Shown here: piece after piece, positions 22,950 through 30,311 of the stretch | How the letters are laid out: each line of letters opens with the position of its first letter | Position numbering within the stretch: the stretch's first letter is position 1 | NCBI GenBank assembly: GCA_902727985.1 | Contig: CACVAY010000084.1 | Span: 43,686-79,685, forward strand | Direction: 5' to 3' | DNA length: 36,000 nt | DNA from: an uncultured Thiotrichaceae bacterium | Lineage (GTDB): Bacteria; Pseudomonadota; Gammaproteobacteria; Thiotrichales; Thiotrichaceae | Translations under genes and position numbers: made by a program | Notes under the pieces: generated by a model | What the model was told of the DNA's origin: nothing | Databases searched by the model: none | The model's input: only the letters and a program-made list of their open reading frames with translations

Positions 22950-23405
22950 ATGTTTAAAACATCCATTATTGCTTTTTTCTTAGTATTTACAACGATGTTG
23001 AGTAACGCCATAGCTGAGGACGATGCCAAAGCAATTGATCTCACGCCTTACAAGGGAAAAGTTGTCTTAGTCGATTTCTGGGCATCTTGGTGCCCTCCCT
23101 GTCGTGAATCCTTCCCATGGCTAAATAAAACACATAGCGCTAAATCTGGAAGCGACCTTGTCATCCTCGGAGTGAATGTTGATGAAAACAAAGAAGATGC
23201 TGAGCAGTTTCTTAAAGAAAACAAAGCGCACTTCAAAATTATCTTTGACACTAAAGGACAGCATGCCACTTATTACAAACTTCCCGGTATGCCCACCACC
23301 TTGATTTTTGATCGTGATGGTAAATTAGTGCATCAACATGCTGGCTTCAAAACTAGTGAAATCAACGAATACGAAGCCACCATTGATAAGATCCTTGCTC
23401 AGTAA
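22950..23405 (+). CDS. TlpA-like periplasmic thioredoxin
   Basis: Thiol-disulfide oxidoreductase of 151 residues. Signal peptide MFKTSIIAFFLVFTTMLSNAIA, cleaved before EDDAK. It shows the thioredoxin strand VVLVDFWASWCPPCRESFPWL with active-site Cys48-Pro-Pro-Cys51, VNVDENKEDAEQFL typical of TlpA/ResA types, and the cis-proline loop LPGMPTTLIFD. The ATG at 22950 is chosen because AGGAA lies eight bases upstream and the signal peptide begins there, although the frame stays open for 44 codons further up. The partner is unknown. A thioredoxin of this type is often, from memory, linked to DUF4266-DUF3570-apbE, which here is 5 kb away. Confidence 0.88.
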   Translation: MFKTSIIAFFLVFTTMLSNAIAEDDAKAIDLTPYKGKVVLVDFWASWCPPCRESFPWLNKTHSAKSGSDLVILGVNVDENKEDAEQFLKENKAHFKIIFDTKGQHATYYKLPGMPTTLIFDRDGKLVHQHAGFKTSEINEYEATIDKILAQ

Positions 23406-23458: not shown

Positions 23459-24088
23459 TTAGTCACTATAGCAAGCGCCAGTGCCGCCTAGTCCGCAATA
23501 GCCATTCGGGTTCTTGGCAAGATATTGTTGATGATATTCTTCTGCATAATAGAACTCAGGAGCAGGGATAATTTCTGTCGTAATCTCAGGGTAGCCTTTT
23601 TCAAGGAGGGTTTTCTGAAAAACGTCTTTGGAGGTTTCTGCTTGCTTTTGTTGCTCATCAGAATACGTGTAGATACCTGAGCGGTACTGTGTGCCACTAT
23701 CATTCCCTTGGCGCATACCTTGCGTGGGATTGTGTGCTTCCCAGAAGCATTTTAGCAACTCTTTGTAGCTAATTTTTTTCGGATCATAAGCAACCAACAC
23801 AACTTCATTATGGGCTGTTTTTCCTGAGCAAACTTCTTGATAAGTTGGATTCTTGGTAAAGCCTGCGCTGTAACCTACGGCTGTTGAGTAGACGCCAGTG
23901 AGTTGCCAGAATTTGCGTTCTGCTCCCCAAAAACAGCCCATCCCAAACAGGGCGGTTTGAATGCCTTCTGGAAAGGGAGGACTAATGGTTACATTATGGA
24001 TGAAATGAATGCCAGATATAGGCAATGCTTTATCTCTTCCGGGTAATGCGGTGTCAGCTGTTGGCATGGCGCTTTTATCAGTGAACAT
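23459..24088 (-). CDS. msrA: Peptide-methionine (S)-S-oxide reductase
   Basis: Repairs oxidised methionine with thioredoxin as reductant. The 209 residues belong to the long MsrA form with an N-terminal extension ([13 protein letters not shown]). Catalytic Cys52 is in [50 protein letters not shown] and [21 protein letters not shown] follow, with C198 and C206 as candidate resolving cysteines. No signal peptide, so cytoplasmic. AAAGGAC eight bases before the ATG supports this start, which overlaps the znuA end by 11 bases, so it is probably co-expressed with the zinc-binding protein. Confidence 0.95.
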
Positions 24089-25046
24089 GAGATTGTCCTT
24101 TACAAGATTTCAATTGCTCAAAAGTATAAGCTAATAGCCCAGCATAACCTTGGTGATTGTCTGGTAACTGCGCACCTTTTGGGTCAAGTATCACAATTTT
24201 GGTTTTATTGCCTTCAACCAAAGCATTCAAAAGTGCTTGATTGCTCTGTGGTGAAGCAACCAGGCAAACAATGTTATCTTCCAGCAAATGACCACGTAGC
24301 TCTTTCACCTGTTTGGCGCTGGGTGGAATACCTTCTTGAATATTGAGAGTACGTGGTGCAGTAACACCAAAGTAGTCTTGGAAGTATTGCCAGGCATCAT
24401 GGAAAACAGCATAACGTAATGTGGTATCGCCAAGTGTTTTAATGATGTGCTCTTCTGTTTGTTTGATATTGTCTTGCAAACGTTGCGCATTCTTGGTGTA
24501 GGCTTCCGCATGCGCTGCATCGAGTATTGAAAGCTCGTGGGCAATCTGCGCAATCAGAAGTCGAGCATTTTCTGGATTAAACCAGAGATGTGAATCAAGT
24601 TTAGTAGCATCCATTGTCTCCGTTTCATGAGCATCTTTATGAACGTAATTATGAGTATGACGCATGCGTGCTGGTAGCGCATGGATGCTCTTCAGTTCCA
24701 TCCAGGTAAGTACTTTTTTCCCTTCCAATGTTTTATTTAAAAAACGTTCCATATTTGGTGAAACACGAATCACCAGATCCGCTTTTTTGATGGTGCGTAG
24801 AGCGCTTGGTTTCAGAGTGTAATGATGAATATTTTGTGTTGCAGGGATGAGGAGTTTTGCTGAGGCGTGTTCGCCTGCAATTTCTTCTGCGATTAAGTGG
24901 ATGGGCAGAATCGTGGAGAGGATTTCTGGTTGTTTCTCAGCAAATGCTTGTGTGCCGATTGTAGACAGACAGAGCCATAAAAATAAGCGTACAATGTGGC
25001 TCTTTTTTAGCGTAAACAAGAATAATGACGGAGCAACTGGTTTCAT
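24078..25046 (-). CDS. znuA: Zinc ABC transporter substrate-binding protein
   Basis: Periplasmic zinc-capture lipid-free binding protein of cluster A-I. 322 residues. Signal region [20 protein letters not shown]. Likely zinc ligands are H74/H75 ([10 protein letters not shown]), H153 ([11 protein letters not shown]) and H216 (VFHDAWQYF), plus a His-rich loop near 130-140 ([12 protein letters not shown]) that is a ZnuA hallmark. The ATG at 25046 would make its first 22 bases overlap the divergent znuC start. A TTG at 25019 is the only in-frame alternative that removes most of the overlap, and neither has a good ribosome site. Zinc (Zur) regulation is expected, but I see no convincing Zur box. 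Confidence 0.92.
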
Positions 25047-25804
25047 TAACGAATATCGCCTTTTCGATTGGTGAACGCGTCATTCTGCATGATATTAGCC
25101 TAGAATTACAGCGTGGAAAGATTCTGACCATTATTGGGCCAAATGGTGCCGGAAAATCGACATTATTACGTATCTTATTGGGTTTAGAATCTAATTATAC
25201 GGGTAAAGTTGGACTAGCTGATGGTATAACTTTAGGTTACGTGCCTCAGAAAGTGGCAGTTGATCCACAGATTCCCTTGTCCGTTGAGCGTTTTTTGCTT
25301 TTGGCGTGTTCTACGATACCAGAGAGTTTTGCTACGACCTTGGAGCAAGTCGGTGTTGCCCATTTATTGCCACAAAAGGTAACAAGTTTATCGGGTGGTG
25401 AGTTTCAACGCGTCTTGCTTGCTCGTGCTTTATTACGTGAACCGGATTTGCTGGTTTTGGATGAACCTGCACAGGGTGTGGATATGCAGGGGCAGGCAAG
25501 TCTCTACGGCTTGCTGGATGAGTTGGTTGATGAGCATGGCTTTGGTGTTTTGATGGTGTCACATGATTTGCATGTGGTAATGGCAAATACCGATGACGTG
25601 CTTTGCCTGAATCAACATATATGCTGTAGTGGACATCCTGAGGCAGTAAGCCGTCATCCGGAATACATGCGCCTGTTCGGCGATCAGTCGACCGAAAACA
25701 TCGGTATCTATACTCACCATCACGATCATGAGCATGATTTACAAGGCAATGTGTGTCCACATGGGCATGAGTGTTCAAAGTTTGGAGATGAAAAACATGG
25801 ATGA
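25025..25804 (+). CDS. znuC: Zinc ABC transporter ATP-binding protein
   Basis: Cytoplasmic ATPase of the zinc importer. 259 residues: Walker A GPNGAGKST (38-46), Q-loop VPQKVAVD, signature LSGGE (122-126), Walker B LLVLDEP (142-148), and the H-loop in MVSHDLHVV. The last 35 residues form a His/Cys-rich tail (HHHDHEHD and CPHGHEC) that resembles a metal-binding extension. It is divergent from znuA with overlapping 5' ends, so the promoter must lie inside znuA coding DNA. It overlaps znuB by eight bases. Confidence 0.95.
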   Translation: MTEQLVSLTNIAFSIGERVILHDISLELQRGKILTIIGPNGAGKSTLLRILLGLESNYTGKVGLADGITLGYVPQKVAVDPQIPLSVERFLLLACSTIPESFATTLEQVGVAHLLPQKVTSLSGGEFQRVLLARALLREPDLLVLDEPAQGVDMQGQASLYGLLDELVDEHGFGVLMVSHDLHVVMANTDDVLCLNQHICCSGHPEAVSRHPEYMRLFGDQSTENIGIYTHHHDHEHDLQGNVCPHGHECSKFGDEKHG

Positions 25805-26579
25805 TTTTCTTCTGCGCGCTTTAACAGCTGGCATGATTGTTGCCATTCTGTGCGGGAGTTTGGGTGTATTTATTCTCTGGCGGCGTATGGCATATTTTGG
25901 CGATACGGTCTCACACGCTTCTATCCTTGGGGTTTCTCTTGGCATATTGATGGGTGTCAGCGTGAGCTTTGGGGTCATTGCAACGAGTATTGCGGTTGCG
26001 CTGGCGATGCTGTTGTTACGTCGCGATCAACGTTTCAGCAATGACACGGTGCTCGGTGTATTGGCGCATAGTGCATTGTCATTGGGGTTGGTGTTGATGG
26101 TTTTTGTCGAAGGACAACAAATAGATCTGAATGCCTGGTTGTTCGGTGATATTTTGGCCGTGACGAAAATAGACTTGATGATTCTTGCAAGTGTTGGCAG
26201 TATTCTACTGATTGTTCTAAGATTGATCTGGAAGCCGCTTCTCTCGATGTCAGTGAGTGAAGATTTGGCGAGAGTAGAAGGGGTGAATATCGCAGGCATA
26301 GGATTGACTTACACGTTGCTGGTTGCAATCACGATTGCCGTGGGAATCAAGGTTATCGGTGCGTTGTTGATTTCTTCGATGTTGATTATTCCTGCTGCCG
26401 CAGCCCGAAATCTGGCGAAGAGTCCGGAAGCTATGGTTCTCTACTCCATGTTGATTGGGGTAATTGCTGTGGTATCAGGCTTAAGCAGTTCCTATTTTTG
26501 GGATACACCCGCAGGTCCATCCATTGTCGTTGCTGCAACCTGTGTATTTATCGTGTTGCAAATGCTTCCCAAACGCTAA
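25797..26579 (+). CDS. znuB: Zinc ABC transporter permease
   Basis: Inner-membrane permease of the zinc importer, 260 residues with about eight hydrophobic segments. MDDFLLRALTAGMIVAILCGSLGVFILWRRMAYFGDTVSHASILG is the typical ABC-3 family opening. Other landmarks are LNAWLFGDILAVT and KVIGALLISSMLIIPAAAARNLAKSP near the C-terminal third. ATG 25797 is preferred over earlier in-frame codons inside znuC because GGAG is eleven bases upstream and the protein then begins at the family's normal N-terminus. The overlap with znuC (ATGGATGA) implies translational coupling. Confidence 0.95.
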   Translation: MDDFLLRALTAGMIVAILCGSLGVFILWRRMAYFGDTVSHASILGVSLGILMGVSVSFGVIATSIAVALAMLLLRRDQRFSNDTVLGVLAHSALSLGLVLMVFVEGQQIDLNAWLFGDILAVTKIDLMILASVGSILLIVLRLIWKPLLSMSVSEDLARVEGVNIAGIGLTYTLLVAITIAVGIKVIGALLISSMLIIPAAAARNLAKSPEAMVLYSMLIGVIAVVSGLSSSYFWDTPAGPSIVVAATCVFIVLQMLPKR

Positions 26580-27897: not shown

Positions 27898-28800
27898 CTA
27901 CTGTTGAATCCAGAATGGTCGGCCTTGCGCTTGTAAGAAATTTTCAGCCAGACTGCCTTTTAACATCGCGAGTGTTGAAAGTATGCCTGCCTCTGTGCAG
28001 CTGGGTGCGGCGATGGTGACTGTGCTAGGAGAGTCTATAACCGGATAGCCAGTGAGTGCATTGATAATATGTCCGTAACGTTTGCCCTCATGGATAATTG
28101 CCTTATAGACGTCACCACTGGTAGCGATAGCGCCTGTTGTTAAAGGAATGGTTTTCCATATCTTACCACCACCTTCTTTGGTCTCAATGCCAATTTCCCA
28201 AGGGCGTTGATCCGCTCGTGGGCCTTTAGCAACAATATCTCCACCTAAATTAATCATAACGCTGTTACCGAGTGATTGATGCGCAATTGCCGCACAACGA
28301 TCTGCGGCATATTCTTTGCCAATTCCGCCGAAGTCTATTTGCATGCCTACTGGTAGGGTGATTTGTTGCTCAGTAATCTCAATGTGTTGCCAACCCACGT
28401 GTTTAAGTTGTTCATTAATTTGCGTTTGCGTGGGAATGTGTTGCTGGTCGAAATTCCAAATCTTTCGAAAGACACCACTGCTAATATCAAACATACCCCC
28501 ACTTTCTTGCCATAAGACATTGGCGAGTGTCAGCAGATGATAGGTTTCCGAATCGATATTCGTTATTTTTCCTTGGGCATTATTAATAATGCTGAGGGGA
28601 GAGCTGGGTAAATATCGCGAGTACTTCTGTTCAATTCGCCATGCTTCTTCGGCGATTTCATGCATGGCAGAGCGTGCTGTTGTGCTATCTGTGTTGTTGT
28701 CGACAAAAATTGCACAAGGGTTTGCCATGGCTCGGAAATGACCAATGTCGAGAGAGCCTTGTGATTCGAAACGTATCTGACCGAGGTGTTCGTTTGGCAT
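27898..28800 (-). CDS. ApbE-family FAD:protein FMN transferase, atypical and without signal peptide
   Basis: Enzymes of this family attach FMN from FAD to a threonine of target redox proteins. 300 residues. Family motifs present: DFGGIGKEYAADR (156-168), INLGGDI (184-190), WEIGIE, AIATSGDVYK, and YGHIINALTGYPV with H244. The C-terminal metal motif, normally ADA-L-S/A-T, reads E270-A-G-I-L-S-T276: the aspartate is Gly272, although Thr276 remains and a Glu sits two residues earlier. There is no export signal or lipobox, so it should act in the cytoplasm, unlike most ApbE proteins. It is last in the DUF4266-DUF3570-apbE cassette, 63 bases after DUF3570. No FMN-binding target protein is seen in the window. 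Confidence 0.9.
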   Translation of the reverse strand: MPNEHLGQIRFESQGSLDIGHFRAMANPCAIFVDNNTDSTTARSAMHEIAEEAWRIEQKYSRYLPSSPLSIINNAQGKITNIDSETYHLLTLANVLWQESGGMFDISSGVFRKIWNFDQQHIPTQTQINEQLKHVGWQHIEITEQQITLPVGMQIDFGGIGKEYAADRCAAIAHQSLGNSVMINLGGDIVAKGPRADQRPWEIGIETKEGGGKIWKTIPLTTGAIATSGDVYKAIIHEGKRYGHIINALTGYPVIDSPSTVTIAAPSCTEAGILSTLAMLKGSLAENFLQAQGRPFWIQQ

Positions 28801-28813
28801 GAGTCCCGGGGTT

Positions 28814-28856
28814 ACTTCCTACCTTTCATTTGATGAGAGAGAGAGAGATAGGAAGT
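28814..28856. repeat. (GA)7 simple repeat inside an inverted repeat, DUF3570-apbE spacer
   Basis: ACTTCCTA (28814-28821) and TAGGAAGT (28849-28856) are perfect 8-bp inverted copies. The 27 bases between them end in seven GA units (28835-28848). The structure fills most of the 63-base spacer and lies just upstream of the apbE start, which otherwise has no well-placed ribosome site. Slippage would change loop length only. Confidence 0.6.
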
Positions 28857-28863
28857 ATGTAGA

Positions 28864-30093
28864 TTAAAACTTTACGCCTGCTGAGAGCATTAGCGCATCG
28901 AAACCTGGGTTTGCATCTAAGCTTGCTTGCCCTGGCGTGAGTTCAACGTTAGTAGGATCTTGAGTGTAGTATTCCCCCGTTATACGCCAATCTCTATTTT
29001 TGTTGCCTTTCCAGCGGTAGGTTGCACCTAAAGTGTATGCAGCAAATTCTGCCAAACGATAGTCTGCTGAGGCATTGGCTGGTAAGGCTGCGGTAGCATC
29101 TAGCTGTGCCGTATAAAAATCTGCGGCGCCTTGATGATAGTAGCGGATATGCGGTTCAATGCTTTTCTTGTTGCCAAGATCAATACGGTATTTCGTATCC
29201 AATGTGACGGAGTCAATGCCCCAATCATCGGTGTGCAATCGGGCGGAACCTGTCACAACATGTTTATTGGAAACAGTGTGTTTAAGTGCTGCATAGAGAT
29301 TATGCCCAGTACGTGAGTCAGGGCGGGATTCATGCAGATTCTCAATAATTGTGCCAGAAGCATCAACACGGCTTACCCACTTATAAGGGTCATTAAGATA
29401 GCCATCAGCAACACTGACACTATAATTAAGCTGAAGAAGAGAGTTTTTTGAGAGAACTTGAGTGAGCCCAATCATTCCATCAAGGGTATTTTTGTCTTCG
29501 CTGCTTGCACCTTTTGTCGCACTGCCATCAGAGAAGGGAATCGGTGCATTGCCGACTGCTTCTACCGAGTCAGCTGCATAAGCTAAGCCCACTGACAGGG
29601 TTGTGTTCTTATCATTCAAGGTTTTTGAGAGACCACCTGATACGCCAAAGTGTAGGTAGTCATATTCTTTGGAAAAGGAAATACCTACATTGCTTCGAGA
29701 GTCTGCATTGAGTGGTTGATCCCAGTTAGCTGAAAGCGATACGCGAGTATCCTTAAACGTATCATCTAACGGTAATTCACCCGCTGGATGAGTGATAGTG
29801 CCATTTCCAGATGGAGAGGTAATGGTCTGGGCTGTAGTCGATGGTGCGACGCCGTTCGGTGATGCACCTGTTAGCGTATCTATGCCAGCATTAATGGTGA
29901 GTTTTTTGTCACTGTCTGTGGTTCGAGTGCCCTGATACTTGAGGCTGCCATCCTGCACGCGATCATCTGTTTCACCGTAGTACAATACTGCAGCTTCATG
30001 ATCCCAATCTGCTGCAGATACGGATGCTGCATTGGTTGCTGCCATGAGCCCTGCGGCGGCTAATGCCAGGCGATTATTCTGTGTTAGTTGCAT
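28864..30093 (-). CDS. DUF3570 outer-membrane beta-barrel protein
   Basis: 409 residues, predicted outer-membrane barrel of unknown function. Signal peptide ends ...ATNAASVSA before ADWDHEAAVLYYGETDDRVQ. The rest is long alternating strands (LTINAGIDTLTGASPNGVAPS, VSLSANWDQPL, VGISFSKEYDYLHFGVSGGLSK, ATYRWKG) and terminates in LMLSAGVKF, the C-terminal aromatic strand recognised by BAM. The ATG at 30093 lies within the stop region of the DUF4266 gene (10-base overlap), with GGAGG six bases upstream, so the two are translationally coupled. It is recognised from memory as DUF3570; the pairing with DUF4266 and ApbE supports that. Confidence 0.88.
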   Translation of the reverse strand: MQLTQNNRLALAAAGLMAATNAASVSAADWDHEAAVLYYGETDDRVQDGSLKYQGTRTTDSDKKLTINAGIDTLTGASPNGVAPSTTAQTITSPSGNGTITHPAGELPLDDTFKDTRVSLSANWDQPLNADSRSNVGISFSKEYDYLHFGVSGGLSKTLNDKNTTLSVGLAYAADSVEAVGNAPIPFSDGSATKGASSEDKNTLDGMIGLTQVLSKNSLLQLNYSVSVADGYLNDPYKWVSRVDASGTIIENLHESRPDSRTGHNLYAALKHTVSNKHVVTGSARLHTDDWGIDSVTLDTKYRIDLGNKKSIEPHIRYYHQGAADFYTAQLDATAALPANASADYRLAEFAAYTLGATYRWKGNKNRDWRITGEYYTQDPTNVELTPGQASLDANPGFDALMLSAGVKF

Positions 30094-30311
30094 CCGCAAC
30101 CTCCAGCACCAAATGAGCGACCACCACTGGTGGCTTCTTTTGAGAAATAGACATGATCGTCAGTGGCATCAATCAGACTGTCACTGCCAAAGGTCATCGC
30201 GGGTTTGGCAAGGTTGCCTCGTTCCCAAGGTTTTATATTCGTTGCACTACAGCTGATCATGCTCAAAGAAAGCATCACTAATATGATGGCGTTTAATAGT
30301 TGTTTAGGCAT
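30084..30311 (-). CDS. DUF4266 small lipoprotein with C-terminal GCGCN
   Basis: 75-residue predicted lipoprotein. Signal sequence MPKQLLNAIILVMLSLSMIS with lipobox MISC, lipid on Cys21. The mature part is only 55 residues: PWERG at 28-32, a polar middle (DSLIDATDDHVYFSKEATSGGRS), and a closing glycine-rich GAGGCGCN with Cys72 and Cys74. A C-x-C at the extreme end could bind metal or be chemically modified, but this is inference. The start is chosen for the lipobox; a longer in-frame extension upstream has no signal-like character. It is the first gene of the cassette and overlaps DUF3570. Ribosome site poor. Confidence 0.85.
   Translation of the reverse strand: MPKQLLNAIILVMLSLSMISCSATNIKPWERGNLAKPAMTFGSDSLIDATDDHVYFSKEATSGGRSFGAGGCGCN

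Follow-up and report, generated by a model that had tools for sequence, protein, structure and literature searches.

The DUF4266, DUF3570 and apbE genes of the window (the whole stretch of 36,000 nucleotides analysed here), together with a displaced thioredoxin gene, probably form a cytosolic-ApbE version of the known thioredoxin/DUF4266/DUF3570/ApbE flavinylation system, in which an outer-membrane barrel would be flavinylated before export and would then take part in an electron relay. We put the probability of this reading at about 60%. The central step of it, that a dedicated ApbE branch in the cytosol, its metal ligand moved by the changes Asp to Gly272 and Gly to Glu163, loads FMN on the unfolded barrel precursor ahead of Sec, for display on the extracellular side, is in our judgement slightly better than an even chance. 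The gene set, the FMN motif, the enzyme class and the lack of a signal peptide are read from sequence, the barrel and its topology come from a structural model, and flavinylation of a DUF3570 protein has been published for another organism. The cassette is a known but little-studied kit; the new part is the enzyme class and the proposed place of flavinylation.

A preliminary description of this DNA placed the three adjacent genes on the minus strand at the positions in Table 1, and matches to Pfam PF14086, PF12094 and PF02424 confirm them. It took the cassette to be uncharacterised, but clusters of a thioredoxin-like protein, DUF4266, DUF3570 and ApbE, with or without DsbD, were described by Meheust et al. 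(2021, eLife 10:e66878; PMC8238504). The window is like the "DsbD systems" of that paper in having the same four families, with the FMN motif in DUF3570 and the CxC end in the adjacent DUF4266, an end that is also noted in PMC8238504. The window differs in that the thioredoxin gene is inverted and displaced by several kb and that DsbD is not in the cluster; the paper reports 316 clusters without adjacent DsbD. The single DsbD of the genome is on another contig, not adjacent to the cassette. The DUF3570 of Chlorobium luteolum was flavinylated on coexpression with its ApbE, and mutation of two [S/T]GA[S/T] serines to alanine abolished flavinylation (PMC8238504). The coexpressed DUF3570 was truncated to remove the signal peptide and, under denaturing conditions, was isolated from the insoluble pellet (PMC8238504), so that export is not needed for a chain to be modified. 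Two FMN motifs are present in the C. luteolum protein, whereas the DUF3570 of the window has one. The consulted sections of PMC8238504 do not mention a signal-less ApbE, a change of metal ligand, the topology of the barrel or two classes of DUF3570.

Table 1. Coordinates of the cassette features in the window.
Feature	Position	Strand	Evidence and remarks
DUF4266 lipoprotein, 75 aa	30084..30311	minus	PF14086, 74 bits, E 1.5e-20; lipobox SMISC; ends FGAGGCGCN
DNA of the conserved G-G-C-G-C-N-stop tail	30084..30104	minus	overlapped by the DUF3570 ATG (30093)
DUF3570, 409 aa, signal peptide and modelled 16-strand outer-membrane beta-barrel, predicted flavinylation substrate	28864..30093	minus	PF12094, 388 bits, E 6e-116; stop at 28864, ATG at 30093
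FMN-attachment motif D72-T-L-T-G-A-S78 of DUF3570, predicted acceptor Ser78	29860..29880	minus	motif rule PMC12052999; DUF3570 mutagenesis PMC8238504
FAD:protein FMN transferase of the ApbE type, lacking a signal peptide	27898..28800	minus	PF02424, 222 bits (cut-off 25.6), E 1.1e-65
TlpA-like periplasmic thioredoxin (FWASWCPPC), displaced fourth cassette member	22950..23405	plus	E 2.3e-61 to partner profile; Pfam Redoxin/AhpC-TSA/Thioredoxin

The recurrent association of these families, put forward in the preliminary description, holds in a survey of Gammaproteobacteria. DUF3570 is on the same strand and immediately downstream of DUF4266 at 96 of 96 DUF4266 loci, an association far above chance, and DUF4266 is present in 90 of the 369 genomes of a class-level draw, about one quarter of the gammaproteobacterial genomes sampled. 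The end of DUF4266 and the start of DUF3570 share 10 nt (ATGCAACTAA), which makes the suggested translational coupling of these two genes plausible, and the identical ATG/stop offset is seen in 56 of 156 DUF4266-DUF3570 pairs. The cassette is patchy in the window genome's own family, being found in 6 of 63 genomes and 5 of 8 genera and in none of the 5 other genomes of the same genus, which suggests loss or transfer. One draft genome of this family (L138) has its DUF3570 split over two frames and its ApbE, of the KE class defined below, over three, by decay or assembly error.

Of the 95 loci surveyed, 86 encode a TlpA-like thioredoxin close by, usually immediately upstream of DUF4266, although this thioredoxin cluster includes a few spurious frames and a few members that lie at a distance. 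The loci with a thioredoxin near DUF4266 include some from the window genome's own family (L090, L139 and L141). In the window this slot is empty. A profile of the DUF4266-adjacent thioredoxins finds the displaced gene with E 2.3e-61, the next best candidate locus scoring 1e-11, and the encoded protein has a signal peptide and CPPC. Loss of the thioredoxin from this genome was rejected, since the counterpart lies inverted in the same window. Thus, the three genes previously described are real, but as a cassette they are incomplete and this thioredoxin is the fourth member. Zinc uptake genes (24078-26579) lie in the interval that separates the thioredoxin gene from the rest of the cassette, with a ZnuA-like gene on the minus strand and ZnuC/ZnuB-like genes on the plus strand. 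The ZnuA-like and ZnuC/ZnuB-like genes meet head to head with about 20 nt in common, and MsrA adjoins ZnuA; the Znu names are read from the sequence, and MsrA was identified by Pfam.

The DUF4266 protein is, as first described, a 75-residue lipoprotein with a GCGCN tail; its lipobox is SMISC and its C-terminus is GAGGCGCN. The GGGCGCN tail is exact in 145 of 161 DUF4266 relatives, where it always forms the last residues. In DNA, the degenerate GGCGCN-stop pattern has a single occurrence in the 3.5-Mb genome, in the DUF4266 gene studied here. The single-chain model of DUF4266 has a pLDDT of 64, and below 50 in the tail, with the mature chain mostly unstructured. This low-confidence model is consistent with, and not evidence for, a flexible tether reaching from the inner leaflet into the barrel. 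The CXXCH haem motif is absent from the three translated proteins (DUF4266, DUF3570 and ApbE).

The preliminary description saw no flavoprotein target with an FMN-attachment motif. However, residues 72-78 of DUF3570, DTLTGAS, are an exact match to the rule D-x-x-[ST]-G-A-[ST] quoted in PMC12052999. The barrel is thus the predicted answer to the suggestion, made in the same description, that one of the two partners is itself modified. AlphaFold2 with 57 sequences gave a DUF3570 model with a pLDDT of 90.5 and 16 long strands. The best structural matches of the model are outer-membrane barrels, with Z up to 22.5; these neighbours are mixed outer-membrane proteins, with no specific functional relative among them. 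The model and the lipobox of DUF4266 agree with the earlier view of an envelope cassette made of a lipoprotein and an outer-membrane barrel. In known outer-membrane barrels, the C-terminus is periplasmic. When the C-terminus of the modelled DUF3570 is set accordingly, every long loop is extracellular and every periplasmic turn is short, and the FMN motif closes strand 3 at the outer, extracellular rim. Furthermore, 28 of the 29 residues that are at least 95% conserved are on the extracellular half of the modelled barrel (P 6e-5). The simplest reading of this model is an outward-facing flavin site. Since the modelled topology puts the motif at the extracellular end, an enzyme in the periplasm would not reach Ser78 once the barrel has folded, and FMN attachment should precede folding.

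Alignment at the motif separates two classes of DUF3570: the motif reads [DE]..[ST]G[AS][ST] in class I, and D.[IV][ST]SASIDV or something very similar in class II. The FMN-motif form is carried by about half of the loci that were read, and culturable Shewanella, Marinobacter and Acinetobacter are among them. The signal peptides of class I barrels, judged by hydropathy, are weakly hydrophobic, with a median best 10-residue value of 2.05, compared with 2.69 for class II barrels and 2.80 for the partner thioredoxins, which would fit slow, post-translational export. Tat export of a pre-loaded barrel was rejected, as just 8 of the 89 signal peptides of class I have an RR-type motif, and that of the window's protein has none. 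Cysteine occurs in two thirds of the class I barrel signal peptides, typically in ATCSLL, and is absent from the DUF3570 of the window. Class II cassettes (SASIDV, usually without apbE) were seen at L058, L116, L125 and about 44 other loci, and they tend to have extra conserved upstream genes on the same strand, which encode a small barrel-like protein, an SH3-plus-barrel-like protein and a lipoprotein of about 900 aa. Very long DUF3570 proteins (about 870-970 aa, motif DTWSGATP) are found in relatives of Nitrosomonas, Methylobacter, Methylomonas and Crenothrix (L243, L251, L252, L253 and L262), with two in tandem at L253.

The ApbE of the cassette, which matches the ApbE structures 1vrm, 4xdt and 6nxi in the PDB, was rightly described as atypical. 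Like the canonical periplasmic ApbE/Ftp enzymes of E. coli, V. cholerae and T. pallidum, it is of the FMN transferase family and has the conserved Lys162, Ser228, His244 and Thr276. Unlike them, it has no signal peptide, has the variant KE163/Gly272 (GGIGKEYA, TEAGILST) in place of KG and Asp, and carries AMxxPC at the start of the core (here the conserved AMANPC). In the alignment, Glu163, which is invariant in this class, replaces the Gly after the active-site Lys, while the Asp of the ADALST motif, the metal-ligand position of E. coli D280, has become the likewise invariant Gly272. Across the ApbEs aligned, KE pairs with Gly and KG pairs with Asp; 18 entries of "KE with Ala" look like register errors of a regular expression, to judge from three examples and from the alignment, which has Gly in those members. 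In E. coli Ftp, D280 is one of the ligands at metal site 1, and the second metal is bound by E169 (PMC4767422). By our reading of the alignments and of the numbering in PMC4767422, D280 corresponds to Gly272, and E169 to the residue that precedes the Glu163 position. Because Glu163 adjoins this second-metal position, a relocated metal ligand is plausible. The loss of the Asp could mean an altered activity and makes canonical catalysis less likely, while the family membership stands.

None of the KE-class ApbEs inspected has a signal peptide, as judged by hydropathy, or a lipobox, whereas KG/Asp ApbEs, including those in the same genomes, have one. A mis-called start that hides a signal peptide was rejected, as just six sense codons separate the upstream in-frame stop from the ATG; there is no hydrophobic stretch, and the relatives are likewise without a signal peptide. 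The ApbEs of Chlorobiales relatives also belong to the KE class. From these sequence features, the cassette ApbE, which is of a distinct branch, appears to stay inside the cell. If so, the cytosol is the only place where it could attach FMN. A cytosolic ApbE without a signal peptide is also found in Klebsiella pneumoniae, but its substrate is the soluble cytosolic fumarate reductase (PMC12052999), whereas the only evident substrate in the window is exported to the outer membrane. Our literature search, in which a single paper named DUF3570 or DUF4266, found no description of a distinct signal-less KE163/Gly272 ApbE class tied to motif-bearing DUF3570.

The occurrence of this ApbE class follows the motif in DUF3570. 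A signal-less KE-class ApbE is present at 34 of 45 class I loci (motif D..[ST]G[AS][ST]) and at 0 of 46 class II loci (P 9e-16, for loci that are not phylogenetically independent). When extra ApbE loci in these genomes were scored by profile search, the class I genomes without a local apbE had a KE-class ApbE elsewhere in 8 of 8 tested (416-468 bits), and the class II genomes had canonical ApbEs only in 8 of 8 tested (at most 176 bits). From the side of the enzyme, DUF3570 is present at 70 of 80 KE-class ApbE loci, and at 46 of the 50 with long flanks. Where a KE-class locus has no DUF3570, or a distant or cut one, 9 of 11 genomes encode DUF3570 elsewhere. Two alphaproteobacterial loci, L236 and L245, have a KE-class ApbE in genomes with no DUF3570 detected. 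The tie of the enzyme to a motif-bearing barrel supports the link to flavin proposed in the preliminary description, and argues against its counter-case of an ApbE that serves only an Nqr/Rnf-type protein. The genome also has two FMN-bind proteins and a separate second ApbE of the lipobox type on contig C127. That the latter belongs to an Nqr/Rnf operon was rejected, because the genes around it are unrelated.

Could the signal-less ApbE reach the periplasm by another route and flavinylate DUF3570 there before folding, as canonical ApbEs do? Characterised ApbEs of exported targets act in the periplasm, and the motif would be reachable in an unfolded periplasmic barrel. However, the KE-class ApbEs inspected lack the export signals that canonical ones in the same genomes have, some KE-class frames open just 10-20 residues or so before the conserved core, and FAD is made in the cytosol; we regard this route as unlikely. 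We give a similarly low weight to the idea that enzymes of the KE/Gly class do not transfer FMN to DUF3570; they would instead modify some cytosolic protein or catalyse another reaction, and their link to DUF3570 would be of a different kind. The metal-ligand Asp (E. coli D280, PMC4767422) is Gly throughout the class, cytosolic ApbEs for cytosolic fumarate reductase exist (PMC12052999), and 2 of the 11 genomes just mentioned have no DUF3570 at all. Against this, Thr276, His244, Ser228 and Lys162 are kept, the invariant Glu163 is next to the second-metal residue of E. coli Ftp, and the class occurs with the D..[ST]G[AS][ST] form of DUF3570, in trans as well as locally. The lipoprotein as the ApbE product, the other alternative of the first description, is very improbable: for all the extreme conservation of its C-terminus, the DUF4266 alignment has no conserved [S/T]GA[S/T] motif, for which reason we rejected it as the FMN acceptor, while the barrel has the motif and belongs to a family that is a proven substrate in the published work (PMC8238504).

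In the reaction sequence that we favour, the signal-less ApbE would take FMN from cytosolic FAD and attach it to Ser78 of the DUF3570 precursor before export, and the weakly hydrophobic signal peptide would allow time for this flavinylation. The flavinylated precursor would then cross by Sec and fold as a 16-strand barrel, with the FMN at the extracellular end. To our knowledge, there is no precedent for an FMN-bearing chain passing through Sec. Subsequently, in an extension of the proposal of Meheust et al., DsbD would reduce the periplasmic TlpA-like thioredoxin, the thioredoxin would reduce the CxC pair in the glycine-rich DUF4266 tail, and from the tail electrons would reach the FMN and finally an extracellular acceptor, for which iron is one candidate. 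The direction of this relay could be reversed.

A different electron path is a possibility that we hold to be well short of even, though clearly less remote than the two alternatives for the enzyme. The FMN barrel might work in the oxidising direction, or it might be a transporter, with its FMN and the CGC lipoprotein gating it or loading a metal; either would compete with the relay only, and is compatible with cytosolic flavinylation. The invariant GGGCGCN tail is a possible metal-binding site, zinc uptake genes are nearby in the window, and VIT1 iron transporters are present in some of the clusters described in PMC8238504, which leaves the function of the system open. However, the thioredoxin at 86 of 95 loci and the DsbD of published clusters point to a thiol-based supply of reductant, and no zinc-uptake family is among the conserved neighbours listed in our survey. 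The favoured outward relay can be compared with the porin-cytochrome conduits of the MtrAB type, in which an outer-membrane barrel and a redox partner transfer electrons outward. The cassette is similar in combining a barrel with a redox partner and in its proposed direction of transfer, but it has no CXXCH and would use flavin and thiols instead, its modelled barrel has 16 strands, and the partner is a small lipoprotein rather than a cytochrome.

In the general view, exported proteins acquire their redox cofactors once export is over, or take them along in the folded state through Tat. If our reading is correct, an FMN-loaded chain bound for the outer membrane by way of Sec would depart from this rule, and loading before export would explain how ApbE is supplied with FAD. 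The cassette is also a candidate cytochrome-free route for electrons across the outer membrane, and it is directly testable, as the culturable Shewanella, Marinobacter and Acinetobacter carry the form with the FMN motif.
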